The notes beneath the pieces were generated by a model. The model was not told the origin of the DNA and made no database searches. It saw only the letters and a program-made list of their open reading frames with translations. This document shows positions 1-21,791 of a stretch of DNA of 40,351 bases, one piece after another. The DNA comes from Nitrososphaerota archaeon (GTDB taxonomy: Archaea; Thermoproteota; Nitrososphaeria; Conexivisphaerales; UBA164). A program made the translations under genes and the position numbers. The stretch covers positions 1 to 40,351 of the forward strand of contig WYER01000004.1 in NCBI GenBank assembly GCA_009903795.1. Direction: 5' to 3'. Numbering within the stretch: position 1 is the stretch's first letter; each line of letters opens with the position of its first letter.

Positions 1-1136
1 TTAATTTAGATCTTAACGCAAAGGTCAGCTCACTTTCAGCTGGCGAAAGGCAGAGGCTTGAAGTGTTAAGATTACTTTACTTTAATTTTAATATTCTTAT
101 ATTTGATGAACCCACTAGCGTTTTAACACCTATTGAAACTGATAATTTGTTAAAAGCTATACGTAAAATTGCTGCTGAAGGAAAAACAATATTTTTTATT
201 TCACATAAACTAAATGAAGTGAAAGCTGTAAGCGATAGGATAACGGTTCTGCGTAGAGGTAAAGTTACATTTAATGGTGTAACAAAAGAAATTTCTACAG
301 ATGAATTAATAAAATATATGATAGAGAAGCTTCCCAAAGTTGAGATTAAACGTGAGATAAAAAGCACGGAAGAAGTACTAAATGTATCAGGTTTAAAGGT
401 AAAGGGCAGTCGGGGTCATTTAGCTGTTAATCTTAATTCAAAAATAAATGTTTATAAAAACGAGATAGTAGGTATAGCTGGGATAGCAGGAAACGGTCAG
501 CGAGAATTATTTGACGCTATAATGGGGCTCAGAAAAATTGAAGAAGGAAAAATAATATTTAAAGGTAAAGACATTACTCACAGCCCAACGCATAAAAGGA
601 TAGAATTGGGTATAGGTTACATACCAGAAGATAGAATTTTAACTGGCTTAGCCCCTGATTTAAGCATAAAGGAAAACTTAATACTCAAATTATATGATAA
701 TCAACAATTTCGCAAATGGTACTTTATTGACAATAATAAAATCGATGCAATGGCGAATGCTTTACTAAAAGAATACGATATAAGAGCAGCTAATGTTGAA
801 GTACCTGTTAAAAATTTATCTGGCGGAAATCTGCAGAAAACGATTTTGGCTAGAGAGATTTCAATGAACCCTGATTTATTGCTTGCCTATGAGCCAACCA
901 AGGGGCTCGATATTGGTGCAACATACTTTATTAGAAACAAGCTGATTGACTATGCAAACAAAGGCGGTAGCATATTGCTATTTTCTGAGGACCTTGAGGA
1001 ATTATTATTTTTAAGCGACAGATTATATGTTATATACAATGGAGATATTGTTGCAGAATTTACTCGAGCACAATTTGATGAATATAAAATAGGCAAAGCA
1101 ATGAGCGGTATAAACTACTTAGAGGTGAGAAACTAA
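1..1136 (+). CDS. Nucleoside-type ABC importer, ATP-binding protein (5' end outside window)
   Basis: This is the ATPase of a BmpA/NupO-like importer, a tandem two-domain ATPase of the RbsA type that powers uptake through the two permeases that follow. The reading frame is open from base 3, so the gene continues upstream and a GTG at 63 is not its start. The visible part begins at the signature LSAGERQRLE and Walker B ILIFDEPTS of the first nucleotide-binding domain. A complete second domain follows, with P-loop-like GIAGNGQRELF, signature LSGGNLQK and the degenerate Walker B LLLAYEPTKGLDIG, which is typical of second domains in this family. The stop lies 1 bp before the first permease. The family imports nucleosides or purines in bacteria, but the substrate here is inferred. 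The substrate-binding lipoprotein is not in the window and is probably upstream. Confidence 0.9.
   Translation, partial: NLDLNAKVSSLSAGERQRLEVLRLLYFNFNILIFDEPTSVLTPIETDNLLKAIRKIAAEGKTIFFISHKLNEVKAVSDRITVLRRGKVTFNGVTKEISTDELIKYMIEKLPKVEIKREIKSTEEVLNVSGLKVKGSRGHLAVNLNSKINVYKNEIVGIAGIAGNGQRELFDAIMGLRKIEEGKIIFKGKDITHSPTHKRIELGIGYIPEDRILTGLAPDLSIKENLILKLYDNQQFRKWYFIDNNKIDAMANALLKEYDIRAANVEVPVKNLSGGNLQKTILAREISMNPDLLLAYEPTKGLDIGATYFIRNKLIDYANKGGSILLFSEDLEELLFLSDRLYVIYNGDIVAEFTRAQFDEYKIGKAMSGINYLEVRN
1122..1129 (+). promoter_or_regulatory. Shine-Dalgarno site deciding a TTG start
   Basis: GAGGTGAG sits 8 nt before the TTG at 1138. The same core and spacing recur before the TTG at 7576, which supports TTG as a genuine start codon in internal genes of this genome. 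Confidence 0.6.
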
Positions 1137-1137
1137 A

Positions 1138-2181
1138 TTGAAAATTACAAAAGAGAATTTAATATTAAATTTTATTGTATACACTACAGCATTTCTATTA
1201 GCTATTGGCTTTGGCGCTGTTCTTATTTGGACAATAATGAGAATAAACCCATTTAGCGCACTATCTTTAATTGTTTCAACTGCGCTTTTTACGCCATTTG
1301 GGAGAACTGCTACATTTTATTACTTAGTAGAGCTTACGTTAATATCACTCGGTCTTGCTATTTCTTATAGAGCAAAATATTGGAACATAGGAGGGGATGG
1401 GCAGTTAATATTTGGAGCCATATTTAGCATGCAGACAATATTTTCACTTGAACATTTGTTTTCTCCATGGTTGGTTATTGTGGCTACGCTTTTAATGGGA
1501 ATGCTTGGTGGGGCTATATATGGTGTAATACCCGCAATAATTAAAGTAAAATTGAATGTTAATGAAGTTTTATCTACACTGATGTTAAACTTTATAGCTA
1601 TATATTTTATGACTTGGCTTGTTGATGTCACTGGACCATGGAAGGATCCACATGCAGCAGAGCTAGAATCGTATCCTATTCCATATAGCCTTTATCTGGA
1701 AAATCCAATTATTTTAACATTAATAATGGTTTTTGCAATAGCAATTATATATATATTAGCAGAAAAGACGTTCTTTGGATTTAAGATTAAAGTCATAGGG
1801 TCAAGTCACTATGCTGCAGACTATGCTGGCATTGATAGAGGCAAAGTATATATCTACCTAGGTTTGATATCGGGCGCGCTTGCGGGATTAGCAGGCTCAA
1901 TCGAAATATTATCAGTATCACATATCTTATCTTCAACATTTGATAGCTTATATATGGGATATGTGGCAATATTTACCACTTGGCTAGCATCCCTTAATCC
2001 ACTTTTTGTAATTCTATCATCGCTTTTGATGTCTACACTTCTCAGCGGAGGGTATTTTATGGAAGCAGTAACCAGCGTATCAGTTTTATTTATTTATTAT
2101 TTTGAGGGAATAACGTTCATCAGCATTATAATATTTGAGGCAACAAAAAGTAAAATTAAAAGGGTGATGAAACTTGGCTAG
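1138..2181 (+). CDS. ABC importer permease, NupP/YufP-like (BPD_transp_2)
   Basis: First membrane subunit of the nucleoside-type importer. The 347-residue protein is mostly hydrophobic, with roughly eight to ten membrane segments. It carries the family stretch SYRAKYWNIGGDGQL after the early helices, where the BmpA-linked permeases have A-x-x-WNIGxEGQ. The TTG start is backed by GAGGTGAG 8 nt upstream. It is separated by 1 bp from the ATPase gene and overlaps the next permease by 8 bp, so the three are co-transcribed. Leucine is largely TTA and isoleucine largely ATA, giving a much more AT-rich look than the housekeeping genes after 13 kb. Substrate specificity cannot be read from the sequence. 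Confidence 0.88.
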   Translation: MKITKENLILNFIVYTTAFLLAIGFGAVLIWTIMRINPFSALSLIVSTALFTPFGRTATFYYLVELTLISLGLAISYRAKYWNIGGDGQLIFGAIFSMQTIFSLEHLFSPWLVIVATLLMGMLGGAIYGVIPAIIKVKLNVNEVLSTLMLNFIAIYFMTWLVDVTGPWKDPHAAELESYPIPYSLYLENPIILTLIMVFAIAIIYILAEKTFFGFKIKVIGSSHYAADYAGIDRGKVYIYLGLISGALAGLAGSIEILSVSHILSSTFDSLYMGYVAIFTTWLASLNPLFVILSSLLMSTLLSGGYFMEAVTSVSVLFIYYFEGITFISIIIFEATKSKIKRVMKLG

Positions 2182-3112
2182 CATACCCTTAATTCCATTT
2201 TTTATAGCTGTAATAAGCATAGGCATATCATATACCACGATTTATCTGATAGCTAGTTTAGGTGAAATATTTTCAGAAAAGGCCGGTGTATTGAACCTTT
2301 CACTAGAGGGCGTCATGACTATGGGAGCATTCCTAGGATACGTTTTTTCATTTATATCAGGTAATCCATATTTTGGTCTTGTAGGTGGATTGGTAGCAGG
2401 ACTTATATTAGGATTGCTTTTTGCATTTATTTCGATTACTATAGGAGTAAATCAAGTGTTGGCTGGTTTAAGCGTGTGGCTAGTTGGTATGGGATTATCA
2501 GATTTTATATACACAATATCATTTGGTAGAACATCATATTTAATTACTGTACCAAAATTACCTACTGTACCAGTACCATATCTCTCAGGCATACCAATTA
2601 TAGGGCAGATGCTTTTTGATCATACTTTGGTTGATTATGCCGCATACTTAAGTGTTCCACTTTTATGGTACGTAATGTTCAAAACAAATTTCGGGCTTAA
2701 AATTATAAGTGTAGGCGAAAATCCGCGTGCGGCAGATTCGCTGGGAATTAACGTGAACAGAATAAGATATATTATGGTGCTGTTTGACAGTTCTATGGCA
2801 GGATTATCTGGTAGCATGATTTCTCTTACTACTGGACTTTATCAGGTAGGTATGATAGCAGGGAGAGGGTGGATTGCTATAGGAATAGCGGCGTTTAGCG
2901 GCCTAAATCCTGCTTATGGACTTTTGGCTTCATTAATATTTGGCGTGGTTAGCGCGTTTGGCCCATCATTAATGATAGTTGGTTACAGAATACCCTATGA
3001 ATTTCTCGATATGACTCCTTTTATAGCTTTACTAGTAGTAGTAATGATGATCTCTAAAAGAATGTTAATGCCTTCAGCTCTTGGTAAACCATATAAAAGA
3101 GAGGAAAAGTGA
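2174..3112 (+). CDS. ABC importer permease, NupQ/YufQ-like (BPD_transp_2)
   Basis: Second membrane subunit of the importer, 312 residues and highly hydrophobic. The N-terminal stretch GEIFSEKAGVLNLSLEGVM matches the conserved S-E-(K/R)-x-G-V-x-N-(L/I)-x-x-E-G motif of this permease family. The TTG start overlaps the previous gene by 8 bp and follows GGTGAT at 2163-2168, indicating translational coupling. The pair of unlike permeases next to an RbsA-like ATPase is the standard layout of BmpA-family nucleoside importers. In an operon next to UbiD and Mo-hydroxylase genes it may instead take up another purine-like or N-heterocyclic compound. That last point is inference. Confidence 0.88.
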   Translation: MASIPLIPFFIAVISIGISYTTIYLIASLGEIFSEKAGVLNLSLEGVMTMGAFLGYVFSFISGNPYFGLVGGLVAGLILGLLFAFISITIGVNQVLAGLSVWLVGMGLSDFIYTISFGRTSYLITVPKLPTVPVPYLSGIPIIGQMLFDHTLVDYAAYLSVPLLWYVMFKTNFGLKIISVGENPRAADSLGINVNRIRYIMVLFDSSMAGLSGSMISLTTGLYQVGMIAGRGWIAIGIAAFSGLNPAYGLLASLIFGVVSAFGPSLMIVGYRIPYEFLDMTPFIALLVVVMMISKRMLMPSALGKPYKREEK

Positions 3113-3744
3113 AAAACAAAAAGATATTAGCAATTTTATTAATAGTTCTTATAACATCGTCATGCTATATTTATTTTAGTGAAAGTGAATATACACGCAA
3201 AAGCCCCTATGGTCATACTTATACTTACTTGATAAAACGGGATTTTGGGTTTAATGGAAAATTTGTAAACTATTCAGAATATATGGAATATAAATTTGGT
3301 TATCCTGTCAAAGGCTTACTAAACATAACGGTAACGGAGCCTGAGCAGCAATACATAGTTACAATATTCTTAAATAATTACTCTGTAAAATCAGTAGTTT
3401 ACATATATAATACTTCTATTGCATTAAATGCTAATGAAGGAGAACGTGAAAATATATATTTGCCATTTATTAGCAACTTAAATGTAACCACAATAAATTT
3501 ATTATCATACAATTTTACTAATTACGGAATTAGTGTAATAACTATACCTGCTTTTGGAAAAATAAAAACAATTCATCTTGGTTATAGAGGTACTGGTAAA
3601 ATAGGGCCTTCAAACTATAATCTATCAATTAATTACTTTTATTCGTTAAATGGTTTACTAGTAATGTCGCAATACATCTGGTCAAGTTCAGGCCCAACAG
3701 GAGAATATTATAGAAATATAACCTCTATTTTAATAAAAGGTTAG
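3109..3744 (+). CDS. Membrane-anchored protein of unknown function
   Basis: I do not recognise this 211-residue protein. Residues 5-24 form one hydrophobic segment after a basic start (MKNKKI), so it is an exported, N-terminally anchored protein. A Cys follows in TSSC, but the residue three before it is Thr, so it is not a canonical lipobox. The rest is rich in Asn, Tyr, Ser and Thr with several N-x-S/T sequons, typical of an archaeal extracytoplasmic domain. The GTG start overlaps the stop of the upstream permease by 4 bp (GTGA), placing it in the importer operon. It may assist the transporter at the cell surface. It does not resemble the usual BMP-family binding protein. It converges on the UbiD gene with a 4-bp overlap. 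Confidence 0.7.
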   Translation: MKNKKILAILLIVLITSSCYIYFSESEYTRKSPYGHTYTYLIKRDFGFNGKFVNYSEYMEYKFGYPVKGLLNITVTEPEQQYIVTIFLNNYSVKSVVYIYNTSIALNANEGERENIYLPFISNLNVTTINLLSYNFTNYGISVITIPAFGKIKTIHLGYRGTGKIGPSNYNLSINYFYSLNGLLVMSQYIWSSSGPTGEYYRNITSILIKG

Positions 3745-5087
3745 GCGTTCAGTTCATTTAAAATTTTACTGACAAGGTGTTGCGGTGCCCGAGCTACTGG
3801 CGGGAACTTAGAAATAGGTTTAGTAGCATCTATTATTATTTTGTTATCAAGAGTTCGTGGACTGCCTTCTATCGAATAATTTGCTGGATTTAAAATATTT
3901 CCGATCACTTCTGGTATTATGGTAAAACTGGTTTCCCTGGATGCCCTAGTTAAAACAGCCCACATAACTTCTTCATCGTTATAAATATCTACGTCTTCGT
4001 CTACAACTATTACAACCCTTATAGCAATTTCGCTTGATAAAGCTGCTAAAGCAGCCCTTTTAGCATCGCCTTCATTTACTTTTTTAATTTGAATGTAAAG
4101 CAACGGCGCAAAGTCATACCCAAACCTTATATTCTTAACATAGGGTGAAACGCTTTTTACATAATTATAAACCGCAGCAAGGTGAGGTAAATTCACTCCA
4201 AGGTTAAGATGATCTCTATATGCAGCGGCAATATCAAGATAAACTGAATCATGCCTTGATCTAACTCTCTTTACAGTTATTACTGGTGTCATCTGCGTTC
4301 CAGAATAATATTTTGGCCATTCACCAAAAGGCCCTTCTTTAACTAGATAGGAAGGATCTTCTATCAATCCCTCAATAACGATTTCGCTACGCGTTAAATA
4401 TGGAAGATCTAAATCATTGCTATATGTAATTTCTAATGGTTCCTGCAAAAATCCACCGGCCATATTAAGTTCGCCGCCGATACCTTTTGGTCTGGAAACA
4501 GCAGCAAAGTAAACTGCTGGATGATGACCTATGGATATGGTAATGGGAACAGGCTTTCCCATTTGCTTATATTTTTCAATTATGTATTGAGCGTCATGAC
4601 CTGGGTCAGTTAATATGCCTAAATGTTTATCGTCAAATATTTGATGCCTATAAATTCCCATATTAAGAGCGCCAGTGTCAGGATCTTTCAATATAGCTAA
4701 ACCACTATCTATGTATGGCCCTCCATCTAGCTCATTATGAACTATATGCGGCAATCCAGAAAGGTCTTCGGTATTTATGTCAAAATTGCTGTCTGGCACC
4801 TCTTTGGGGTTTAATTCCTTTTGTGAAAGTTCAAAAAATTTGTTAGCAATGGACGGAATATCACATTTATCACAATCAAGGGCTTTGCCCATTCTAAAAA
4901 TTGATGCAAACAAATTTGTCACAACAACTTTCCCGTTAACGTTGTTAAAATAAAGTACAGGATATTTTTTTAGCTTTTCATATGCATCAACGTAGGCATT
5001 TAGTTCGTATCTTTGATCTACAGGATGTTTTACATAAACTATCTCATTTTCAACGGCTTTTAGAAAGGATTTTAGATCCTTACTCAT
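3741..5087 (-). CDS. UbiD-family prenyl-FMN-dependent (de)carboxylase, copy A
   Basis: UbiD enzymes decarboxylate, or run in reverse on, aromatic and unsaturated acids using prenylated FMN. Counting from the chosen start, the 448-residue protein has NMGIYRHQ around residue 142-149 (cofactor/Arg region), EIVIEG at 235-240 and EGPFGEWPKYYS at 251-262. These carry the Glu and Arg positions expected of the R-E-E catalytic set. The frame is open up to 5249, but those 54 extra codons are Cys/His-rich and unlike UbiD. I start at the ATG at 5087 because a TATA-like element (TATAAATTATAAATT on the minus strand) ends about 15-25 nt upstream, fitting a leaderless message. The cofactor could come from UbiX at 18.1 kb. 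The substrate is unknown, and the neighbours suggest an aromatic or heteroaromatic acid. Confidence 0.85.
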   Translation of the reverse strand: MSKDLKSFLKAVENEIVYVKHPVDQRYELNAYVDAYEKLKKYPVLYFNNVNGKVVVTNLFASIFRMGKALDCDKCDIPSIANKFFELSQKELNPKEVPDSNFDINTEDLSGLPHIVHNELDGGPYIDSGLAILKDPDTGALNMGIYRHQIFDDKHLGILTDPGHDAQYIIEKYKQMGKPVPITISIGHHPAVYFAAVSRPKGIGGELNMAGGFLQEPLEITYSNDLDLPYLTRSEIVIEGLIEDPSYLVKEGPFGEWPKYYSGTQMTPVITVKRVRSRHDSVYLDIAAAYRDHLNLGVNLPHLAAVYNYVKSVSPYVKNIRFGYDFAPLLYIQIKKVNEGDAKRAALAALSSEIAIRVVIVVDEDVDIYNDEEVMWAVLTRASRETSFTIIPEVIGNILNPANYSIEGSPRTLDNKIIIDATKPISKFPPVARAPQHLVSKILNELNA

Positions 5088-5591
5088 TAAAATGAACTCG
5101 CATAATTTATAATTTATACCTTTTCTTTGTACTTGCGATGCTACTAGTAGTACACCAATAACCATAATGTCACCGTCTGAAGTATGGAGATGACATCGAT
5201 GATAAAGACAATAATGCGATGGATTTCGATGTTGCATAACTCTATTCACAAATTAACAAGTTAAAGAGGAAAAGCATGCGAAGTAGAGGTATTTTACGGC
5301 AACAAGCGCCAACTCTTTTAAGGATTACAAGAAATGAAGCTGCAGAAATGAATACTCTAAGCAAGAGACAGTTGGAGAGGATAATGAATAAGTTAAGAAG
5401 AAGATGGTTGAAATAATAAATGGATGGATTCATTGATAAACAATGACATACTAAGTTAAAAAGCTCGCGTCATTGCTTTTCATTATCATGTGCTAGAAGG
5501 TGTACATAAGTGTCTTGGCACAACAATTCAGTAACAGTAATTAATAACCAATAGTTTAAAAAATAAAAAACAAAACATAAGAATAAATGCA
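5088..5591. other. 504-bp gap with a basic 46-codon ORF, possible element relic
   Basis: This gap separates the divergent UbiD-A and enamidase-like genes. On the plus strand, ATG 5276 to stop 5416 encodes a 46-residue, strongly basic peptide (MRSRGILRQQ..., ending KLRRRWLK). The same frame stays open upstream to a stop at about 5238 and reads INKLKRKS before the ATG, so it may be an internal piece of a decayed transposase rather than a gene. The last 70 bp before 5592 are A/T-rich (TTTAAAAAATAA) and probably hold the promoter of the downstream gene. Confidence 0.4.
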
Positions 5592-6875
5592 ATGAAGGTA
5601 GCTATTTTTAACGCAGGAAAAATTGTCAGTGGAGATTGGAACAAAGGAATATTAAAAGCTGATTCAGTTTTGATAGAGGACGGAAAATTTAAGCAAATAG
5701 GTTACGAAAACGAAATACATCCTGAAAAGGCAGACATAAGGATCGACGCAAACGGTATGGTTTTAATACCAGGGTTGATAGACCCTCATACACACTTAGG
5801 TTTTGGAGAATGGGGTCCTGAAAACGGAATGATTGGAGTAGCACTTGAAGCACTGTATCAGGGCACAACTACAGCAATAGATGAATTCGCTAGGTATGAA
5901 GGTGAGCCAGATTTTTATCCACCAAATCCCAGTGGCGTTAAAGCTTCTTCAATAGTACATTATTTTGCTTGGAAAAACTATAGACCAGGGGGGTTGATGA
6001 AGGTTCACGGCGGCAGCATTGTTCTCGTTAAGGGGCTTAAAGAAAGTGACTTTAAGGAACTTGCAGAAATTGGGATATGGAAAGTGGCACAGATAGGCGG
6101 AAGCAGTGACCTAAGTCCTGATGAATTGCTTGAGATGGCTTCTTGGGCAAGAAAATATGGCATGTTTATACCAACCAATTTTGGGGCTGGGGTGTTAAAG
6201 ACTGCAGTTTACTTGGATGCAGATTTTGTTAAAAAGCTTCAACCAGACAAGCTTGCGCATGCAAACGGCGGAAGCACAGCAGCACCTTGGGACATGACGA
6301 GGGAAGTTATTGATGCTGCGCCGAAGGCGGCTGTTGAACTTGTGACCTACGGCAACCAGAAAATGTCATTAAGAATACTAGATTATTTAAAAAATAAGAA
6401 TCAATTAAACAGGGTTATTTTGGGCAGTGATACGCCAACCGGGCAAGGTTACTTTCCAATAGCGATGATGCAAGGTATAAAGTTCATCTCAAGTATAGGA
6501 AATGTCCCAGCAGAAAAGGCTATAGCTATGGCTACAGGAAATACTTATGACTACTACAAAAAGTGGATAAACACAGGCAAAATACAGGAAGGTCTTGAAG
6601 CCGACTGTGTTATAATTGATAAGCCGCCAGGAAGCGTTGGAACTGATGCGCTCGGAGCTATAGAAAATGGAGACTTAGTGGGTCCTGCAATGGTTATGGT
6701 AGATGGAAAAATAGCCGCTCTTAGGGGTCGTGATAGCAGGCCAACTACAAAATACATAAGGCTCAATGGAAAAGAACTCGGAGTAACCGATCCAAATGAG
6801 AGACAGTTTGATCCTCCAAGGTTTTACTGGAAGAGCACGGGAGAAACTTACTTGTTACTTTCAGATAATAAGTAA
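5592..6875 (+). CDS. Enamidase-like amidohydrolase
   Basis: An amidohydrolase-superfamily protein of 427 residues whose closest remembered relative is enamidase (Ena) of the nicotinate fermentation pathway, which hydrolyses 1,4,5,6-tetrahydro-6-oxonicotinate. Shared blocks from memory are the N-terminal NAGKIVSGD, KVHGG near 137-141, the ELAEIGIWKV region, MATGNT, and GSVGTDALGAI near the C-terminus. Metal-ligand positions visible are His66 and His68 (PHTHL), His223 (AHANGG) and Asp280 (LGSDTP). Where Ena, by recalled sequence, has Glu in GEVG and His in QMHTGG, this protein has Gln167 (VAQIGG) and Asn196 (PTNFGAG). The metal site may therefore be mononuclear or altered. The ATG start follows an A/T-rich promoter. 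It lies between two UbiD genes and upstream of a Mo-hydroxylase subunit, which fits an N-heterocycle pathway. Exact substrate unproven. Confidence 0.8.
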   Translation: MKVAIFNAGKIVSGDWNKGILKADSVLIEDGKFKQIGYENEIHPEKADIRIDANGMVLIPGLIDPHTHLGFGEWGPENGMIGVALEALYQGTTTAIDEFARYEGEPDFYPPNPSGVKASSIVHYFAWKNYRPGGLMKVHGGSIVLVKGLKESDFKELAEIGIWKVAQIGGSSDLSPDELLEMASWARKYGMFIPTNFGAGVLKTAVYLDADFVKKLQPDKLAHANGGSTAAPWDMTREVIDAAPKAAVELVTYGNQKMSLRILDYLKNKNQLNRVILGSDTPTGQGYFPIAMMQGIKFISSIGNVPAEKAIAMATGNTYDYYKKWINTGKIQEGLEADCVIIDKPPGSVGTDALGAIENGDLVGPAMVMVDGKIAALRGRDSRPTTKYIRLNGKELGVTDPNERQFDPPRFYWKSTGETYLLLSDNK

Positions 6876-7575
6876 CATCTTTAGACGACTAAAATTTTTG
6901 TCTTATCTTTTATTGTTTTTATGTTTCTTCTTTTCAACTAAGCTTAAATTAAAACATGGTGAAAAGCTCATTTTCTTATTTGTAAAAGTATAGAATAGCT
7001 TGCACGTTCTGAACTAGTTCTTTGCATTGTAAAAACTGAAGCTTCTGCAGGAGAATTAAACGCTTCTGTACTTTATGTATCATTTTTTTATTTTTTTATG
7101 GAGGTTTTTCAGGCTCCGAACATAGGCTTAAGATAAAAAATTAAATTAAAGTCTGTGCTATACTTCAAAAATTTGCTATATAAAAAATTAAAAGATATAT
7201 GATCTATCTATAGTATCAATAGTAAACTATCTTCGTTTAGACCAACTCCTATATAAAATAGCAACCAGATAGTTCTGATGCCAGCTAACGTTAAACAATA
7301 GTGCTGACTTATACAATTTTAACATAACATACATCAATGTAAGTTAAGTATAAATGAAAATTCTCTTCGATTTCTGCATTGCGTAATTATTTGCTTAATG
7401 ATATTATAGGCAAATACTAGGGAAATATTACGTAAGTTCTTTTGGTATCTTTTTCTATTTTGTATAATTATTTATTAGAAATACGGCGTTGTTAAAAATT
7501 AGCGAGAAGTAAATTCTTATACAAAATTTTTAATAAACTAAACGCTCTATTAAGTTATGTAGAGGTGTTGAGTTA
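6876..7575. other. 700-bp gap holding a TnpB 3'-end relic
   Basis: No complete gene. Bases 6999-7136 (plus strand) form an open frame without a start, whose peptide resembles the TnpB C-terminal relic at 37.1 kb. The rest is A/T-rich with scattered stops in all frames. The last 50 bp carry TTTTTAATAAACTA near 7528 and a GAGGTG ribosome binding site at 7562-7567, 8 nt before the TTG of the Mo-hydroxylase gene. The FAD and 2Fe-2S subunits that usually accompany that gene are not encoded here. Confidence 0.6.
6999..7136 (+). pseudogene. TnpB C-terminal relic (IS200/IS605 type)
   Basis: A 45-codon frame bounded by a stop upstream and lacking a start. It includes KTEASAGELNASVLYVSFF. The pseudogene at 37.1 kb reads RGDAGGENASVIVEYFS at the matching position, so both share an A-G-(G)E-N-A-S-V core. 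The nucleotide sequences align around it as well. I infer that both are C-terminal ends of the same TnpB family. No zinc-finger or RuvC block survives here. Confidence 0.4.
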
Positions 7576-9750
7576 TTGTATACCAATCTTGAGGTGAGAA
7601 ATAAGCTACTTACATCGATAGATAAGGTAGAGAAGGTTACTGGTGAATATAAATATGTAGACGATATTCGCTTGAATGAAGCGTATTACGGTGGCGTACT
7701 TAGGGCGGGGGTACCACATGGAATTATTAAGAAAATTGACATTAGCAACGCATTAAGGTCGCCTGGTGTAAAGGCCGTAATAACTGCTAAAGATGTTCCT
7801 GGGTTAAACGCATTCGGATACTTTATTCCTGAACAACCAGTTTTATGTTATGATAAAGTAAGATATGAAGGCGATGCTGTTGCGGCCGTTGCTGCAGATA
7901 CGCGTGAGCATCTTTTACAAGCGCTTGAAGAGATAAAGGTGGAAATAGATCCATTACCAGTCGTTGATTCAATAGATGAAGCATTATCAGAAGAAGCTCC
8001 CAAAATTCACGAAAAGGGAAATATAGCATATTCAGTAAACTACGAAAAGGGTAACTTTGATGTTACAAAATTTGACAAATACATTGAAGGCGTTTATGAA
8101 ACTCCGATGGTAAAACCAATGTACATAGAGTTGGAATCTACAATAGCTATGTATTCTAATAACAGGCTTGAATTAATAACAACAACACAAAGCCCCGAAC
8201 ATGATATCAAGCAGCTTGCCAGAAGTCTAAACCTGGACGAACGCAACATTCACATAAAGATGAAGGACCCCGGTGGGGCATTTGGTGGAAAGGAGGAAAT
8301 TCACACTCAAATTCTTGCATCACTGCTTTCAATAAAAAGCGGGGCACCTGTTAAAATGACATTTACGAGGGAAGAATCAAACATTGCAACCACGAGGAGG
8401 CAGGCTTTCAGATTTTACATTAAAACTGGTCTTTCATCTGATAATTATATTTTGGGAAATTATGTTAAGGCAATTGCTGATACTGGGGCATACCTGAGCC
8501 ACGGACCAGTAGTTCTTGAAGTAAGCGCTTCGCATGCTTCAGAACCTTACTTTATTCCAAACGTTAAGTTTGAGGGAATTCTTGTTTATACTAATCATCC
8601 GCCAGCCGGTGGGATGAGAGGTTATGGGGCTTCCGAAATAAACTTTGCACTTGAAAGGCACATAGATCACATATGTAGAGAACTGAACCTTGACCCAGTA
8701 GAATTTAGAGAAAAAAACATGATAAAAGAAGGTCAACAGAACGGCACTGGAATAGTTCCGATCTCAACAGTAAGAGCTAAAGAAACTCTGCAAAAAGCAA
8801 TGCACAGCAATTTATGGACAAATAGAAATAAAAGCCACCCAGACCCATATATAAGGGTAGGTTATGGTATAGCTTCTGGAGCAAAGAGCACAAGCTACGG
8901 GCAGAGCGGTGACTCAGCAAAGGTGAAAATGACAATTGAGGATGGCTTCATAAACATTTACTTTACCACTCCAGACATGGGTACTGGGGCAAGGTCTACT
9001 ATCAGATTAATAGCAGCAAGAGCTCTAAATATTGATGTTGTAAATATAAGGATATTTAACGATGATAGCGATTTTCCATCATCAGGAACATCGAATGCCT
9101 CAAGGACTACATTTATGATAGGAAATGCTGTTCTAAAATGCAGCAAAAAACTAGTTGAATATATAAGTAGCAAGCTTGGAACAGATTTTAATCTTAACAG
9201 TAGGGAATCGCTAGAGGAAATAAATCGTAAGATCGGAAAGGTAGAAGTTACAGAAGAATATAACTTACCTAAAGTTGAAGGCGGAAATTTTGCAAAGGGC
9301 GATTTTATATTTTCATATGCAACTGCTGTTGCAAGGGTTGAGGTTAACTTGCTTACAGGTAGATACCGTGTCACTGATATAGAGTTCTATCCAGAAGCAG
9401 GTAAAATACTTAATCCGGTTGCATTCATGAGCCAGATGGAGGGCGGTATAATAATGTCACTGGGTTATGCTACAATGGAAGAACTGAAGACTGCTAATGG
9501 ACATATTTTGTCAAAGAACTTTACCACTTATGTGGTTCCAACAGCAAAGGATATTCCAAGAATAAAGGTGGACCCAATAGATGACTATGATCCTCTGGGG
9601 CCCTTTGGGGCAAAGGGTGCAGGCGAATTGCCACTTGTTGCTGTAGTCCCTGCGATAGTCAACGCGCTTGTCGACGCAACTGGGAAGGAGCTGAACAGGA
9701 TACCCGTTAGGCTAGAAGACCTTATATTGTTAGAACAAACCATTAAATAA
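7576..9750 (+). CDS. Molybdopterin-binding subunit of a xanthine-dehydrogenase-family hydroxylase
   Basis: Large catalytic subunit (724 residues) of a molybdenum hydroxylase, which inserts water-derived oxygen into N-heterocycles, aldehydes or CO. Cofactor motifs are GGAFGGKE at 233-240, AGGMRGYG at 344-351, and GAKGAGE at 678-684, where Glu684 is the expected catalytic base. The lack of the CO-dehydrogenase CSFR-type loop argues against CoxL. The TTG start is chosen from GAGGTG 8 nt upstream. The medium FAD and small 2Fe-2S subunits normally encoded alongside are absent from this window, so they must be elsewhere. UbiD-B starts 21 bp downstream, so the two are probably one transcript. Next to an enamidase-like gene, a nicotinate-dehydrogenase-like role is attractive but unproven. 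Confidence 0.88.
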   Translation: MYTNLEVRNKLLTSIDKVEKVTGEYKYVDDIRLNEAYYGGVLRAGVPHGIIKKIDISNALRSPGVKAVITAKDVPGLNAFGYFIPEQPVLCYDKVRYEGDAVAAVAADTREHLLQALEEIKVEIDPLPVVDSIDEALSEEAPKIHEKGNIAYSVNYEKGNFDVTKFDKYIEGVYETPMVKPMYIELESTIAMYSNNRLELITTTQSPEHDIKQLARSLNLDERNIHIKMKDPGGAFGGKEEIHTQILASLLSIKSGAPVKMTFTREESNIATTRRQAFRFYIKTGLSSDNYILGNYVKAIADTGAYLSHGPVVLEVSASHASEPYFIPNVKFEGILVYTNHPPAGGMRGYGASEINFALERHIDHICRELNLDPVEFREKNMIKEGQQNGTGIVPISTVRAKETLQKAMHSNLWTNRNKSHPDPYIRVGYGIASGAKSTSYGQSGDSAKVKMTIEDGFINIYFTTPDMGTGARSTIRLIAARALNIDVVNIRIFNDDSDFPSSGTSNASRTTFMIGNAVLKCSKKLVEYISSKLGTDFNLNSRESLEEINRKIGKVEVTEEYNLPKVEGGNFAKGDFIFSYATAVARVEVNLLTGRYRVTDIEFYPEAGKILNPVAFMSQMEGGIIMSLGYATMEELKTANGHILSKNFTTYVVPTAKDIPRIKVDPIDDYDPLGPFGAKGAGELPLVAVVPAIVNALVDATGKELNRIPVRLEDLILLEQTIK

Positions 9751-9771
9751 AAAAAGTTCATCATTTAAACC

Positions 9772-11334
9772 ATGTCTCTTAGAAGAGCGTTAAGCGACCT
9801 AATGAAAGTTTTGCCTAATGAAGTTCTAGAAATAGATCGTGAGGTTAGCACAGAATATGAGATTACAGCCTTTGCAGAAGCGCTTTCCATTCAGAGCCCG
9901 GTTCTTGTTTTCAAGAGAGTAAAGAACTACCCTCAATTCACTGTTATTAGCAACATGTTCAGCTCCAGGGAAAAGATAGCCGTTTACCTTGGGGTTAAAA
10001 AGGAAGAACTCAATAAAAAGTGGGTTTCTATCATAAACCGTGATTATAATTACACTATAAGCGATGGTGATGGACCAGTAAGGGAGATTCAGTATATAGG
10101 AGAAAAAGTAGACATAACTGCACTTCCCGTGCTAACACATTATCCACAGGATGGCGGAAGGTACATAACCTCAGGAATAATAGTAGCTAGAAGCATAGAT
10201 GGCACAGTCAACTTGAGCTTTGCAAGGATCCAGATCGTAGACAAAAACAAAATTGCCCTGAGCATGCATTCGCGAGGCCACCTATGGAGCTATTACCTTA
10301 AATTCAGGGAAATGAAACGTGACATGCCGATCTCCATAGTAATAGGCGCTCATCCAATTTACTATTTAATGGCGGCCGCAAGAATAGATGAAGAATACAG
10401 GAAGGTTTACGGGCTGATCGATGACAAACTAATAGCAGGGATTACAAACGATTTGCCAGTTCCCGCAAATTCAGAAATTGTACTTGAAGGGAAGATATTG
10501 TGGGATAAATCATTTGACGAAGGTCCATTTACGGAATACACAGGATACCTTTCAAACAGGTCAACAAAGAATCTGGCACAGATAGACGCTATTTATATGA
10601 GAAGAAATCCAATATATTTGGAAATAAATCCTTCAAATTCCAAGGAGCACATACTGCTTTCTGGCATTGCAAAGGAACCTATAGTTGAATCAACCATAAG
10701 GAGCTTCCTTCCATCAGCCTACAGGTTCAGCGTGGATTGGCCATTAAAAGGTGTCCATTACGTTGCAATGGCTTATATAGAAAACCCCGAGATGGGGATA
10801 TCAAAGCAGCTTGGATTAATGCTGCTTGGGCTTGACCATTACCTTAAGATCGTTTTTGTTTCGGAAAACAAGGTGCAATTGAGCCTTTATGCTATGCTTT
10901 CTCAGATGCTTTGTTCATGGGACATTGAAATAATAAAGAACGTTTTCTGCAACAAGCTAGATCCCTCGGCTTCTCCTGACGGTACAAGCAGTAAAGTGAT
11001 TTTTACTTGCAAAGGCTCTGAGGAGCAACCTGTAACTGAAGTTAAAGAAAATGAAATAAACATTATCAAGTGCGGAAAGAAACTACACATTGGGCATGAA
11101 GCGGATAAAAGTGCACAGATAAACCTGGTAGTTGATAGTGACATTGATCCTAAAAATGAGGACGATGTTCTATGGGCAATGGCAACCAGGCTTCAGCCAG
11201 CGAACGGTATAAAAATTTCAGATAAGGGCATAATAATAGACACTCGGAGGCCAGGGCTAAGCAGGCCAAGGCTTCCTGAGGACGTAATTAAAAATGTTAT
11301 TCAATATCTCCAAAAAGTTTCAGCTCTTTCTTAA
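9772..11334 (+). CDS. UbiD-family prenyl-FMN-dependent (de)carboxylase, copy B
   Basis: A second UbiD-family enzyme, 520 residues and longer than copy A. It has NLSFARIQ around 147-154 (cofactor region), EIVLEG at 235-240 and EGPFTEYTGY at 250-259, preserving the two catalytic Glu positions with Thr in place of the usual Gly. DGGRYITSG at 127-135 matches the family pattern. The overall order is that of aromatic-acid decarboxylases and carboxylases such as the hydroxybenzoate, vanillate and phenylphosphate types. The ATG lies 21 bp after the Mo-hydroxylase subunit, so they are likely co-expressed. The 3' end overlaps the convergent ParB-like gene by 38 bp. Two distinct UbiD genes around an enamidase-like gene suggest sequential decarboxylations, or activities on different intermediates. 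Confidence 0.87.
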   Translation: MSLRRALSDLMKVLPNEVLEIDREVSTEYEITAFAEALSIQSPVLVFKRVKNYPQFTVISNMFSSREKIAVYLGVKKEELNKKWVSIINRDYNYTISDGDGPVREIQYIGEKVDITALPVLTHYPQDGGRYITSGIIVARSIDGTVNLSFARIQIVDKNKIALSMHSRGHLWSYYLKFREMKRDMPISIVIGAHPIYYLMAAARIDEEYRKVYGLIDDKLIAGITNDLPVPANSEIVLEGKILWDKSFDEGPFTEYTGYLSNRSTKNLAQIDAIYMRRNPIYLEINPSNSKEHILLSGIAKEPIVESTIRSFLPSAYRFSVDWPLKGVHYVAMAYIENPEMGISKQLGLMLLGLDHYLKIVFVSENKVQLSLYAMLSQMLCSWDIEIIKNVFCNKLDPSASPDGTSSKVIFTCKGSEEQPVTEVKENEINIIKCGKKLHIGHEADKSAQINLVVDSDIDPKNEDDVLWAMATRLQPANGIKISDKGIIIDTRRPGLSRPRLPEDVIKNVIQYLQKVSALS

Positions 11335-12148
11335 CCCTTGCCCTTTCGTTTATTAGCTGGTCCAAAAGCTGATGTAAATTGTACCTGAACCCAACAGCCT
11401 TAGCATAAAATTCATCATTGCCCTCGAGCTTTCCAATAGAAATATCATAGTTTATAAGACAGTTCCTTGTTGAAACTATCATTTCATCAATGACCTTCAA
11501 ATAGGCCACGCGCGGTGACATTGTATGCTCCCTTTCTTCCTTTATCATGAGCCTGAGCTGCCTCATTGTAGGCCTTTTCTCCTTAATTTTTCCTACAAGC
11601 TTCTTCATCTGATCTTCGTTCTTTACTTTGGTCAGTTCAGCCGCAACGAAAGGCTTTATTTCTCCCCGCGCAACCATCTCCTTTATTTCAGAAGGCAATT
11701 CAAGCAACTTCATCATCATGTATATGTACGCTGGACTCTTTCCAATGTTCCTGGCCAGTTCGCTAAGACCTCCCCAACCCTTCTTGTGAACATAGTTTGC
11801 ATAGGCCATGGCCTCTTCCAAAGGATTAAGGCTCTTTCTTTGGACGTTCTCAGATATTGCTATAAGGTAAGCATCCTTGTCAGTTACGTTAACTATTATT
11901 GATTTGGCAGTTTTCATACCAAGCAGCATGCATGCCCTGAACCTCCTGTGCCCAGCGAGCAGCTGGTATCTCTTCTGACCATTTGGCCTTTCCCTTACAA
12001 TCAGTGGTTCAAGGAGCCCAAGAGACCTTATCGATTCAGCAAGCTCTTGGAGGTTCCCGAAGTCGCTTCTTATTACAAATGATTCTGCATCTATTTCACT
12101 AAGTGGCAGCTCAACAGGTTCGCGGAGAACGCTTAACTGTTTAAGCAT
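11297..12148 (-). CDS. ParB/Spo0J-like partition protein
   Basis: A 283-residue ParB-family DNA-binding protein. The ParB/Srx N-terminal domain includes LLAGHRRFRACMLLG (about residues 63-77) with the GHRR nucleotide-binding motif (GERR in many bacteria). NVQRKSLNPLEEAMAY comes next, then a KorB-like helix-turn-helix region (GGLSELARNIGKSPAYIYMMM). The C-terminal 90 residues are not recognised. No ParA is encoded nearby, so it is an orphan. It may act in chromosome or element partition or as a CTP-dependent clamp-like regulator. A TATA-like TTATAAG lies about 25 nt before the ATG on the minus strand, so it has its own leaderless promoter. It overlaps the end of UbiD-B by 38 bp, tail to tail. 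Confidence 0.85.
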   Translation of the reverse strand: MLKQLSVLREPVELPLSEIDAESFVIRSDFGNLQELAESIRSLGLLEPLIVRERPNGQKRYQLLAGHRRFRACMLLGMKTAKSIIVNVTDKDAYLIAISENVQRKSLNPLEEAMAYANYVHKKGWGGLSELARNIGKSPAYIYMMMKLLELPSEIKEMVARGEIKPFVAAELTKVKNEDQMKKLVGKIKEKRPTMRQLRLMIKEEREHTMSPRVAYLKVIDEMIVSTRNCLINYDISIGKLEGNDEFYAKAVGFRYNLHQLLDQLINERARVKKELKLFGDIE

Positions 12149-12201
12149 ATTAAAGAATAGTAAGCAAGGAAGCTTATAATGGTATGATGTGGAAAGTATG
12201 T

Positions 12202-13023
12202 CTACAGTACCTCTTTAAGGTAGATACCTGCATCCTGAGAGCTTTCCAGTATAACGTCAAAGAGCTTTATAAAACCTTTTGCAAGGTTTCGGTCGTATAT
12301 CAGAATATAGCTGTCATCACTCCTGTTTAAGCTGAAATCTTCGTCATGCTGTATTGCCCCTAGCAGCACTCTATCCTGGTCAAATATGTTGAGCCTAATC
12401 TGCAGCCCTCCCTGATGCTTAAAGGGTATGTACTGGTAAAGCATTGCAGCTTCTCTTTTATTCTGTTCATTAACCTCACTGATAATCATGACCTTCACGC
12501 CACGCCTGAGCATCTCTATATAGTCCTCAAGTAACCCATGCCTTATGCTCCTGAGAAGACCATTTCCTGACATTATCAGTCTGTATTCTGAATGCGTTTC
12601 CTTGAACAGCTTCCTGAGCTCTTGGTATAGTCTCTTCCTTCCAAATATCATTGTATATTCACTCTTATAGTGTGTACCATAGGTGCCATTTATGCGCTCA
12701 AGCTCTTTGATTATGTTGTTTAAAGCTGTTCTTTCCTTAATGTACTGCTCCTCAAGTGATGCCTGCGCAATTTCCCTTAGCTTTTCAACTGGCCTTGCTA
12801 TGTAAACGTTGACATTTCCAAGACCCTTATCAACAAGCCCGAGCTTTGTTATTCTTTCTAGATGCTTGTATACAGCGGCCCTATCTTTCCTTAAAATACT
12901 ACTTATTTCACTTACAGTCTTTGGACCTTCCTTCAAGAGCAAAACATAAATTTTAAGCTGTTCTCTAGTAATGCCTACCTTGTTGAGCACAGCAACTGTT
13001 TCCTCAGAAACTGGTATATCCAT
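12202..13023 (-). CDS. TrmB-family transcriptional regulator
   Basis: 273 residues with an N-terminal winged helix of TrmB/MarR type. EQLKIYVLLLKEGPKTVSEI and AAVYKHLERITKLGLV form the DNA-binding part (about residues 19-65), followed by a coiled-coil linker. The C-terminal half resembles the phospholipase-D-like effector domain of TrmB proteins (RRGVKVMIISE, YILIYD). TrmB regulators usually sense sugars or other small ligands and control nearby transport and catabolic genes, so the importer and UbiD block to the left is a plausible target. The ATG is preceded on the minus strand by TTTAAATAAAAAT at the proper promoter distance. It lies 53 bp upstream of the ParB-like gene in the same direction. 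Confidence 0.82.
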   Translation of the reverse strand: MDIPVSEETVAVLNKVGITREQLKIYVLLLKEGPKTVSEISSILRKDRAAVYKHLERITKLGLVDKGLGNVNVYIARPVEKLREIAQASLEEQYIKERTALNNIIKELERINGTYGTHYKSEYTMIFGRKRLYQELRKLFKETHSEYRLIMSGNGLLRSIRHGLLEDYIEMLRRGVKVMIISEVNEQNKREAAMLYQYIPFKHQGGLQIRLNIFDQDRVLLGAIQHDEDFSLNRSDDSYILIYDRNLAKGFIKLFDVILESSQDAGIYLKEVL

Positions 13024-18116: not shown

Positions 18117-18683
18117 TTGAAAGGCGTTGTAGGAATAACAGGAGCTAGCGGGATAATTTATGGTGTAAGGCTTGCCGAAGAGCTTAACAGAAGCGGAGTT
18201 GAGGTTCACACCATATTTACGGAAGCGGCAAAGAAGACATCAGAGTACGAGCTTAAAGATGCATACGAGAGGGTTAAAAAAGCTTCAAAAAAGGTCTACG
18301 AAGAAGAGGATATTGATGAAGCTCCGGCAAGCGGCTCGAGTGGTTTCAACTTTATGGTAATTGCTCCATGTAGCATAAGGACTCTGGGTTCAGTTGCAAA
18401 CGGTATAGCTGACAACCTGTTGACGAGGGCTGCAATGGTAAATCTGAAGGAGAGAAAAAAGCTGTTGCTAGTTATTAGGGAAACACCGTTATCTACGATA
18501 GATATAATGAACATGCTGAAGGTTTCGATCGCGGGGGCCATTGTCATGCCAGCATCACCAGCGTTCTATTCGAAACCTAAAAGCGTTGAAGACATGGTTA
18601 ACTTTATAGTGGGAAAAGCACTTGACATTCTTGAGATAAAGCACAACCTTTACAAAAGGTGGAAGGCTGACGAGCTGCCTTAG
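18117..18683 (+). CDS. ubiX: Flavin prenyltransferase UbiX
   Basis: Makes prenyl-FMN, the cofactor of UbiD enzymes, from FMN and dimethylallyl phosphate. 188 residues. Family motifs are GITGASGIIYGVRLAEEL at the N-terminus (flavin-binding), APCSIRTLGSVANGIADNLL in the middle, RETPLS, and MPASPAFYSKP near the end. The TTG start follows TTTAATTTTT at a typical archaeal promoter distance. It lies 1 bp ahead of the DUF429 gene. It is the only UbiX in the window and would activate the two UbiD enzymes at 3.7 kb and 9.8 kb, although it is not adjacent to them. Confidence 0.93.
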   Translation: MKGVVGITGASGIIYGVRLAEELNRSGVEVHTIFTEAAKKTSEYELKDAYERVKKASKKVYEEEDIDEAPASGSSGFNFMVIAPCSIRTLGSVANGIADNLLTRAAMVNLKERKKLLLVIRETPLSTIDIMNMLKVSIAGAIVMPASPAFYSKPKSVEDMVNFIVGKALDILEIKHNLYKRWKADELP

Positions 18684-20438: not shown

Positions 20439-21791
20439 TCAGAGACCCAAGACCTCTACCTTTTCAGATGCATTTTCGAGCCTTCTCCAGTAGTCCGCAA
20501 CCATTTTTTCCGCTTTTTTGTTTATCTCTTCTATGTTTATCTTTACGAACTTCCCGCCTTTAAGAAGGACTTCGCCGTTCACTATTACTGTGTCTACGTC
20601 TTTGCCGTTAACTGAGTTTACGAGGTAACCGTAAGCAGAACCAGAGTTAAGAGGCGTCGGCCTTACTGCAGGCCTAATTATGACTACATCAGCAAGCTTT
20701 CCAGCTTCTATCGAACCAAGCCTATCAGCTATGCCAAGCGCTTTTGCAGCATTAATTGTGCTCATTTCAAGAACCTGCTGAAAGCTCATGACCCTGGGAT
20801 CAAGCTTGTTAACCTTGTGTATCAGGTATGTTGCCCTAATGTTTTCAAACGTATCAAATACATAACCGTCGTTGCCTATGCTTACGTTAATCCCCATGCT
20901 GAGCATCTCAGGCACCGGCGCTATTCCAACGGCATTAAGCATGTTACTTAGCGCGTTATGAGCTACAGAAGTTCTTGTACTAGCTATTAACCTGAGCTCA
21001 TCTTCGTTTACCTGGACGGCGTGAGCTACGAGCGTTCTTTCGCCAAGTATTCCTAGATCGTAAAGCCTTTCAAAAGTCCTCTTGCCGTACCTTTCAAGGT
21101 TATGATAAAGGTCCCATTTTCCCTCTGAAGTATGTATTGTTATTGGAACAGAGTATTTATCAGAAAGCTCTTTTCCGGCTTTCAGAAGATCGTCGTGAAC
21201 TGTAAAAGAGGCATGGATGCTTACCATACCGTTCATCCTCTCATCTTTGCTTTTCTTTATGTACCTCTCGTTCTCTTTCAGACCTTCAAACCCTTCTTCA
21301 TTGCTTCTTCTCTGTGTGGCTTCAAAAGATATGAAACCCCTTATGCCGGCTTCAAGCACGCCTTTCTCAATCATGTCGAGCACTCCTTTTATTGCGTTAG
21401 GCCCAGAGAACGTGTCAGCAAACGTAGTAGTTCCGCTTCTCAGAAGCTCGAGCGAAGCTGTAAGCGCGCTGATGTAAGCGTCGTCTTCGTTCATGGTTTC
21501 GTCCATTGGCCACCATATTCTCTGAAGGTTCTGGGTAAAATCGCTCGGGGGTTTAAGCTTTAACGGAGCACCTCTCAGAAGTATTCCATAAAGGTGAGTG
21601 TGAGAACAAACAAAACCAGGGGTAACTATGCTGCCCGAAGCATCTATCTCCTCATCTGCCTTTAACCTAGAAACACCCTTTTCAACCTGGACTATTCTGT
21701 TATTTTCTATGAGGATTGAACCGTTGAAAACCTCCCTTTTATTGTTCATCGTAACAATTATACCGTTGTTAACAGAAACTGTCTTGTTCAT
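20439..21791 (-). CDS. SsnA-like aminohydrolase (amidohydrolase superfamily)
   Basis: 450 residues. Metal ligands are visible as SHTHLYG (HxH, about residues 63-65), TIHTSEG and VAHAVQ (two single His), and GNDGY (the Asp). The GFVCSHTHLYG, RIWWPMDETM and ISFEATQRR blocks, plus the C-terminal DYWRRLE, closely resemble SsnA, a putative aminohydrolase. In enteric bacteria ssnA is encoded beside an xdhD-type molybdenum hydroxylase and purine or hypoxanthine genes. The wider relatives are methylthioadenosine, S-adenosylhomocysteine and chlorohydrolase-type deaminases. The substrate is therefore probably an amino- or oxo-heterocycle such as a purine or a deaminated nucleoside. It sits alone on the minus strand, with its promoter region in the following gap. 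Confidence 0.8.
   Translation of the reverse strand: MNKTVSVNNGIIVTMNNKREVFNGSILIENNRIVQVEKGVSRLKADEEIDASGSIVTPGFVCSHTHLYGILLRGAPLKLKPPSDFTQNLQRIWWPMDETMNEDDAYISALTASLELLRSGTTTFADTFSGPNAIKGVLDMIEKGVLEAGIRGFISFEATQRRSNEEGFEGLKENERYIKKSKDERMNGMVSIHASFTVHDDLLKAGKELSDKYSVPITIHTSEGKWDLYHNLERYGKRTFERLYDLGILGERTLVAHAVQVNEDELRLIASTRTSVAHNALSNMLNAVGIAPVPEMLSMGINVSIGNDGYVFDTFENIRATYLIHKVNKLDPRVMSFQQVLEMSTINAAKALGIADRLGSIEAGKLADVVIIRPAVRPTPLNSGSAYGYLVNSVNGKDVDTVIVNGEVLLKGGKFVKINIEEINKKAEKMVADYWRRLENASEKVEVLGL

Follow-up and report, generated by a model that had tools for sequence, protein, structure and literature searches.

The archaeal contig WYER01000004.1 (assembly GCA_009903795.1, a Nitrososphaerota archaeon) was analysed over its full 40,351 nucleotides, hereafter the window. 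It carries four neighbouring enzyme genes: two encode UbiD-family (de)carboxylases (UbiD-A and UbiD-B), one an enamidase-family amidohydrolase and one the large subunit of a molybdenum (Mo) hydroxylase. These genes, a Bmp/Nup-type importer and ParB- and TrmB-type proteins form one conserved set. We give roughly even credence to the idea that the set serves archaeal utilisation of an N-heteroaromatic carboxylic acid, as a variant of the Mo-hydroxylase/enamidase scheme that includes decarboxylases dependent on prenylated flavin mononucleotide (prFMN). The idea is built on the homologies of the enzymes, the catalytic residues of the UbiDs and the Mo subunit, the co-location of the genes and their recurrence in two archaeal classes.

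A gene set that stays together

The window is the entire contig C32 of a genome of 1.36 Mb in 33 contigs, whose nearest named relatives are metagenome-assembled genomes (MAGs) of the Nitrososphaeria/Nitrososphaerales. We followed co-occurrence in the host family (11 incomplete genomes, all Nitrososphaeria MAGs) and in three distant genomes. The hydrolase and a Mo-subunit orthologue (52-74% identical) are both present in seven of the 11 family genomes (G000, G035, G041, G043, G047, G049 and G053) and both missing from four (G020, G029, G032 and G051). Six of the seven island-bearing genomes have UbiDs additional to a third UbiD that is family-wide; no UbiD whatever was detected in G047, a genome that is 74% complete.

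Gene order varies between genomes, while gene content stays grouped. One locus (L050) reads TrmB, ParB, UbiD-B, UbiD-A, hydrolase, Bmp, and another (L047) reads Mo subunit, hydrolase, Bmp, importer, UbiD-A. The Bmp binding protein adjoins the importer genes in relatives (in L047 it lies at 11359-12432). The chance of four randomly placed genes falling within 7.6 kb is P ~7e-7. Because the co-location beats chance and recurs in rearranged orders, we regard the set as a unit rather than a coincidence.

Anhydromevalonate phosphate decarboxylase is a UbiD-family enzyme. Archaea use such an enzyme (mentioned in PMC9385802), and one window UbiD could serve the archaeal mevalonate pathway next to genes that are unrelated chance neighbours. 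This explanation is very improbable. The occurrence of UbiD-A and UbiD-B tracks the island, whereas the mevalonate enzyme would be expected throughout the family whether or not the island is there. The family-wide third UbiD (on contig C8, 435 amino acids) has relatives of 430-440 amino acids in most family members, island-less ones included, and fits the mevalonate role, which disfavours either window UbiD for it. Finally, the island recurs in scrambled orders and in another class.

Two further genes of the window, UbiX and an SsnA-like aminohydrolase, had been linked to the island in a preliminary description of this DNA. Both lie where that description placed them, but they are not island members, as they also occur in family genomes that lack the island. 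UbiX is present in a single copy in the genome and in 10 of the 11 family genomes; it is a core gene that serves the UbiDs and is not specific to the island. The SsnA-like gene has an orthologue (61-88% identical) in 10 of the 11 and was likewise rejected as an island member in favour of a core family gene. The two commonly share a contig, a few kb or less apart.

A phylum-wide search with UbiD-B found a 40% identical UbiD in G214, G242 and G398, which belong to another class. In all three, two ECF-type ATPase genes come after the UbiD, and with them an amidohydrolase that shares 53% identity with the window's; all run in the same direction. The loci further encode the T component of an ECF importer and, probably, its S component. 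Their Mo large subunit (L155-L157) is non-orthologous and belongs to another subfamily, the carbon monoxide (CO)/glyceraldehyde type. SsnA-type aminohydrolases lie further along in the two distant loci that reach far enough, and L155 was confirmed to carry LLM (F420-type) oxidoreductases. On contig C176 of G398 (L159 2756-7032), three UbiD genes adjoin one another in the company of an ABC ATPase and an aminohydrolase; one of the three shares 41% identity with UbiD-A. The scan of the whole contig collection was pattern-limited, such that remote members may have escaped, and its sole full-length bacterial match is a Rhizobium MAG locus (L069), near which neither the UbiDs nor the Mo subunit of the window has a homologue.

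The preliminary description had named the four enzyme genes and a nucleoside-type importer ahead of them, and had suggested conserved synteny in archaeal genomes as a check. Domain matches at 3741-11334 bear out the enzymes and their placement, and the importer genes (63-3112) are of the Bmp/Nup type (Table 1). Synteny also holds, in that the set recurs rearranged in relatives from the host family, and the hydrolase and a UbiD recur in the second class.

Table 1. Genes of the cluster and further genes discussed, with positions in the window
Feature	Position	Strand	Remarks
Bmp/Nup-type ABC importer ATPase	63..1136	+	ABC_tran; N-terminus truncated by contig end; 65% identical full-length relative in L047, adjoining Bmp substrate-binding protein
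Importer permease 1 (BPD_transp_2)	1138..2181	+	kept beside cluster in L047, L049, L158
Importer permease 2	2174..3112	+	65-70% identical relatives adjoining cluster in L047, L048, L049, L158
Small importer-associated protein	3109..3744	+	no Pfam or NCBIfam match; follows permease 2 in L047, L048, L049, L158
UbiD-A, prFMN-dependent (de)carboxylase family	3741..5087	-	PF01977 8.9e-48; catalytic Arg/Glu/Glu kept; nearest solved relative 6h6v
Enamidase-family amidohydrolase, subfamily c1, altered metal site (Q167, N196)	5592..6875	+	2VUN E=2.8e-71; invariant substitutions; monophyletic c1 clade
Molybdenum hydroxylase large (molybdopterin) subunit	7576..9750	+	MoCoBD_1/MoCoBD_2/Ald_Xan_dh_C domains; catalytic Glu684 kept; no linked Fe-S or FAD subunits
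UbiD-B, prFMN-dependent (de)carboxylase family	9772..11334	+	PF01977 6.4e-50; C-terminal segment partly duplicated; relative in distant c1 operons
ParB-N/HTH protein, probable regulator	11297..12148	-	adjoins UbiD-B in L045, L046, L050, L052
TrmB-type transcription regulator	12202..13023	-	within cluster in L045, L046, L050, L052
UbiX	18117..18683		core gene
SsnA-like aminohydrolase	20439..21791		core family gene

The open reading frame (ORF) of UbiD-A spans 3741-5249 on the minus strand, and the start common to relatives lies at ~5087. UbiD-A stands on the strand opposite to the hydrolase, the Mo subunit and UbiD-B. Only 21 bp separate the Mo subunit from UbiD-B, and the two are probably co-transcribed. 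Between the hydrolase and the Mo subunit lie 700 bp (6876-7575); the equivalent gap in L045 is ~70 bp. Iron-sulphur (Fe-S) or flavin adenine dinucleotide (FAD) subunits overlooked in this gap were considered and rejected, since it holds no ORF of at least 100 amino acids and gives no homology matches. In relatives, an alcohol-dehydrogenase-family gene lies near the Mo subunit (L047 5682-7444, L052 11841-13597), accompanied in L047 by an MptE-like gene. We also asked whether an LLM oxidoreductase regularly belongs to the host-family cluster and rejected this: the family's LLM genes are scattered; G047 has one near a second-copy hydrolase, and G035 has one on the contig that bears the cluster.

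Enzymes, route and substrate

In the favoured route the Bmp/Nup-type importer would take up the compound. One or both UbiDs would strip its ring carboxylate or carboxylates, using prenylated FMN from the cell's single UbiX. The Mo large subunit, with Fe-S and FAD partners encoded elsewhere, would form a lactam by hydroxylating the carbon that adjoins the nitrogen of the ring, and the enamidase-family hydrolase would open the ring at the amide. We infer in which order and direction these steps run, that the Mo subunit is paired in trans and that the ring holds nitrogen.

Both UbiDs keep the catalytic Arg/Glu/Glu and the prFMN-binding Glu. The closest solved relative of both is 6h6v, the furan-2,5-dicarboxylate decarboxylase HmfF. 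The furan specificity of HmfF depends critically on H297 (PMC7976604). The His aligned with this residue is invariant in UbiD-A and UbiD-B, a weak signal that may be common among UbiDs. The Arg at position 304 of 6h6v is a Lys in UbiD-B and falls near a His in the UbiD-A alignment. UbiD-B is unusual at residues ~370-490, where a C-terminal segment is apparently partly duplicated with complementary loss, and the NxLDPSxxxxGTSSKV motif precedes rather than follows the VDxDID...WAxATR motif. This arrangement is kept in the host family and absent from the distant relatives.

The nearness to HmfF and the aligned His would also suit catabolism of a ring acid without nitrogen, for example a furan or phenolic carboxylate degraded in a Hmf-like pathway. 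Yet no CoA ligase is present among the cluster genes examined, and the hydrolase comes from a family of C-N hydrolases. Hence we consider a nitrogen-free substrate unlikely.

The step assigned to the Mo subunit in the N-heteroaromatic route agrees with its affinities. The subunit is a single chain of 724 amino acids that keeps the catalytic Glu684 and the molybdopterin motifs. Among solved structures, the L and M subunits of nicotinate dehydrogenase give the best combined score (251.5+111.7 bits), and 4-hydroxybenzoyl-CoA reductase scores 273.6. In a tree with few references the subunit joins nicotinate dehydrogenase and pucD-like paralogues (support 91/90), and a branch with support 100/99 parts it from the CO/glyceraldehyde type. 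Scores and tree thus place it on the nicotinate/xanthine dehydrogenase side, in keeping with the xanthine-dehydrogenase family named in the preliminary description.

The same affinities raise the question of purines. As in purinolytic clostridia, a xanthine-like ring could be hydroxylated by the Mo subunit and opened by the hydrolase, and a UbiD could decarboxylate the resulting imidazole carboxylate. Among NCBIfam models, pucD indeed matches the Mo subunit best (520 bits, below its cut-off of 784), the importer is nucleoside-type, and SsnA-type deaminases occur in the distant operons. Moreover, a second unpaired Mo large subunit of the host genome (G000 contig C11, L058 6576-8819) adjoins an NCS1 nucleobase/allantoin-type permease (8910-10598). 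But the SsnA-like gene of the window is core in the family and not linked to the cluster, no named aminoimidazole decarboxylase among the models and structures searched matches the UbiDs, and the hydrolase is enamidase-like, not dihydroorotase- or allantoinase-like. Purine catabolism is therefore an improbable function for the cluster.

The hydrolase falls in the enamidase family, as had been proposed for it. Its match to the Eubacterium barkeri enamidase (2VUN) covers residues 2-387, the next best structure reaches 3e-6, and 2VUN is its only strong solved homologue. A phylum search and a tree divide the archaeal homologues into two clades, c1 and c2. Clade c1 (support 100/100) takes in the window's hydrolase, those of the host family and those of the three distant genomes, and has a conserved C-terminal tail peculiar to it (in the window's family, FDPPRFYWKSTGETYLL). 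A second, more divergent c1 copy occurs in several relatives (L045 544-1824, L047 9664-10938, L050 8885-10150, L051 1126-2391); the host genome has only a fragment of it, split in two at the end of a contig (G000 C5:2-452).

Clade c2 keeps H67, H69, E164, H193, H220 and D276, which we take to be the metal ligands of enamidase by analogy with the amidohydrolase superfamily. In this superfamily a Glu or modified Lys at the place of E164 forms a bridge between two metals, the second of which is bound by H193. The bacterial homologue in L069 apparently has a Lys at the position aligned with E164, in a local alignment that is uncertain. A c2 gene and a Mo large subunit are direct neighbours in the loci L178-L185, eight in all, of which several are partial contigs; in L186 the c2 gene has no adjoining Mo large subunit. 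The gene directly 3' of the c2 enamidase encodes 315-339 amino acids and is an LLM enzyme in L178; nearby, this locus also holds an aldehyde dehydrogenase, a PF06684 protein and an importer of the LIV type. We regard L178-L185 as candidate archaeal nicotinate-type operons.

Several findings weigh against the N-heteroaromatic route for the window. In every c1 sequence E164 is replaced by Gln and H193 by Asn, with H67, H69, H220 and D276 kept. Because the bridging Glu and the second-metal His are both replaced, the c1 site is probably single-metal or otherwise altered. Judging from these residues, the c1 reaction should not be equated with that of enamidase, and amide hydrolysis may not apply. 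The AlphaFold model of the hydrolase (pLDDT, the predicted local distance difference test, 45.9) is too poor for use. Homologues of the small (Fe-S) or medium (FAD) hydroxylase subunits were found neither in the window nor in 22 further loci, including the enamidase-linked ones. A vitamin B6 type model scores far below its cut-off for the importer, a nitrogen in the ring is suggested by homology alone, and the cluster has neither a linked ring reductase nor a linked enzyme for later steps of the pathway.

Two of these points can be read further. The search for Fe-S and FAD subunits finds all four pairs elsewhere in the host genome, a positive control that also shows that the small and medium subunits sought by the preliminary description exist, though none lies near the cluster. 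There are four Fe-S subunits for six large subunits in the host genome, and the other host genomes tested have Fe-S subunits as well. Fe-S subunits are encoded elsewhere, and therefore sharing in trans is possible. The lack of a linked ring reductase, in turn, favours substrates such as pyrrole or imidazole acids, predicted to give enamide-like lactams without reduction. A possible reductase-free form would lead from pyrrole-2-carboxylate via pyrrole and pyrrolin-2-one to succinic semialdehyde and ammonia.

Nicotinate itself is not specifically indicated. In nicotinate fermentation as in E. barkeri, hydroxylation and ring reduction precede the enamidase, and the UbiDs would feed in pyridine dicarboxylates. 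The homology of the hydrolase to enamidase, the nearness of the Mo subunit to nicotinate dehydrogenase and the LLM (F420-type) oxidoreductases of the distant operons, which could do the reduction, all agree with this pathway. However, c1 is without two metal-site residues while c2, with its full ligands, is a separate gene in the distant c1-bearing genomes; no reductase is linked in the window, and LLM genes lie scattered in the host family. No 6-hydroxynicotinate reductase was recognised in the cluster, though no model for it was searched. We therefore hold nicotinate fermentation to be decidedly unlikely.

Given the altered c1 site and the missing Fe-S/FAD linkage, the nicotinate-type chemistry of the preliminary description is not supported if taken literally. 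Its broader reading, an N-heterocyclic aromatic acid, is partly supported: synteny is conserved, the hydroxylase is not of the CO/aldehyde type and the hydrolase is not an unrelated deaminase. More tentatively, we suggest a possible undescribed pathway in which the UbiDs feed a Mo large subunit working without dedicated Fe-S/FAD subunits, and an amidohydrolase with a rebuilt metal site (Gln and Asn, no bridging carboxylate) opens a ring substrate on which the known enamidases do not act.

To our knowledge, archaeal degradation of N-heteroaromatic acids is poorly known. We found no paper that describes archaeal enamidases or an enamidase-UbiD link in a search that left most subscription papers outside. 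The cluster's enzymes are few and expressible, and the way to assay them is clear. Clade c1 exposes a subfamily of metal-dependent hydrolases with two invariant metal-site substitutions, and the loci show a recurring pattern of Mo-hydroxylase catalytic subunits that stand without local electron-transfer partners.

Comparison with known systems

In the Hmf pathway a UbiD and a Mo-hydroxylase act in one catabolic route. The window resembles it in this pairing, in its nearest solved UbiD and in the His at the specificity position, but has two UbiDs instead of one, an amidohydrolase and no CoA ligase that we could see.

Nicotinate dehydrogenase (3HRD) and pucD/XdhA lie on the same side as the window's Mo subunit by score and tree, and share its catalytic Glu and molybdopterin motifs. 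Unlike nicotinate dehydrogenase, the Mo subunit is not split into L and M and has no linked Fe-S/FAD subunits.

The E. barkeri enamidase is homologous to the hydrolase over its full length (37% identity), with the HxH, His and Asp of the metal site kept. The c1 protein differs in the Gln for E164, the Asn for H193, its own tail and its UbiD partner genes. The archaeal c2 operons (L178-L185) share with the window an enamidase-family gene, a Mo large subunit without linked small or medium subunits, and an importer. In contrast to the window cluster, they keep the six metal-site residues, show no UbiD, have a LIV-type importer and carry an LLM gene (confirmed in L178) right after the enamidase.

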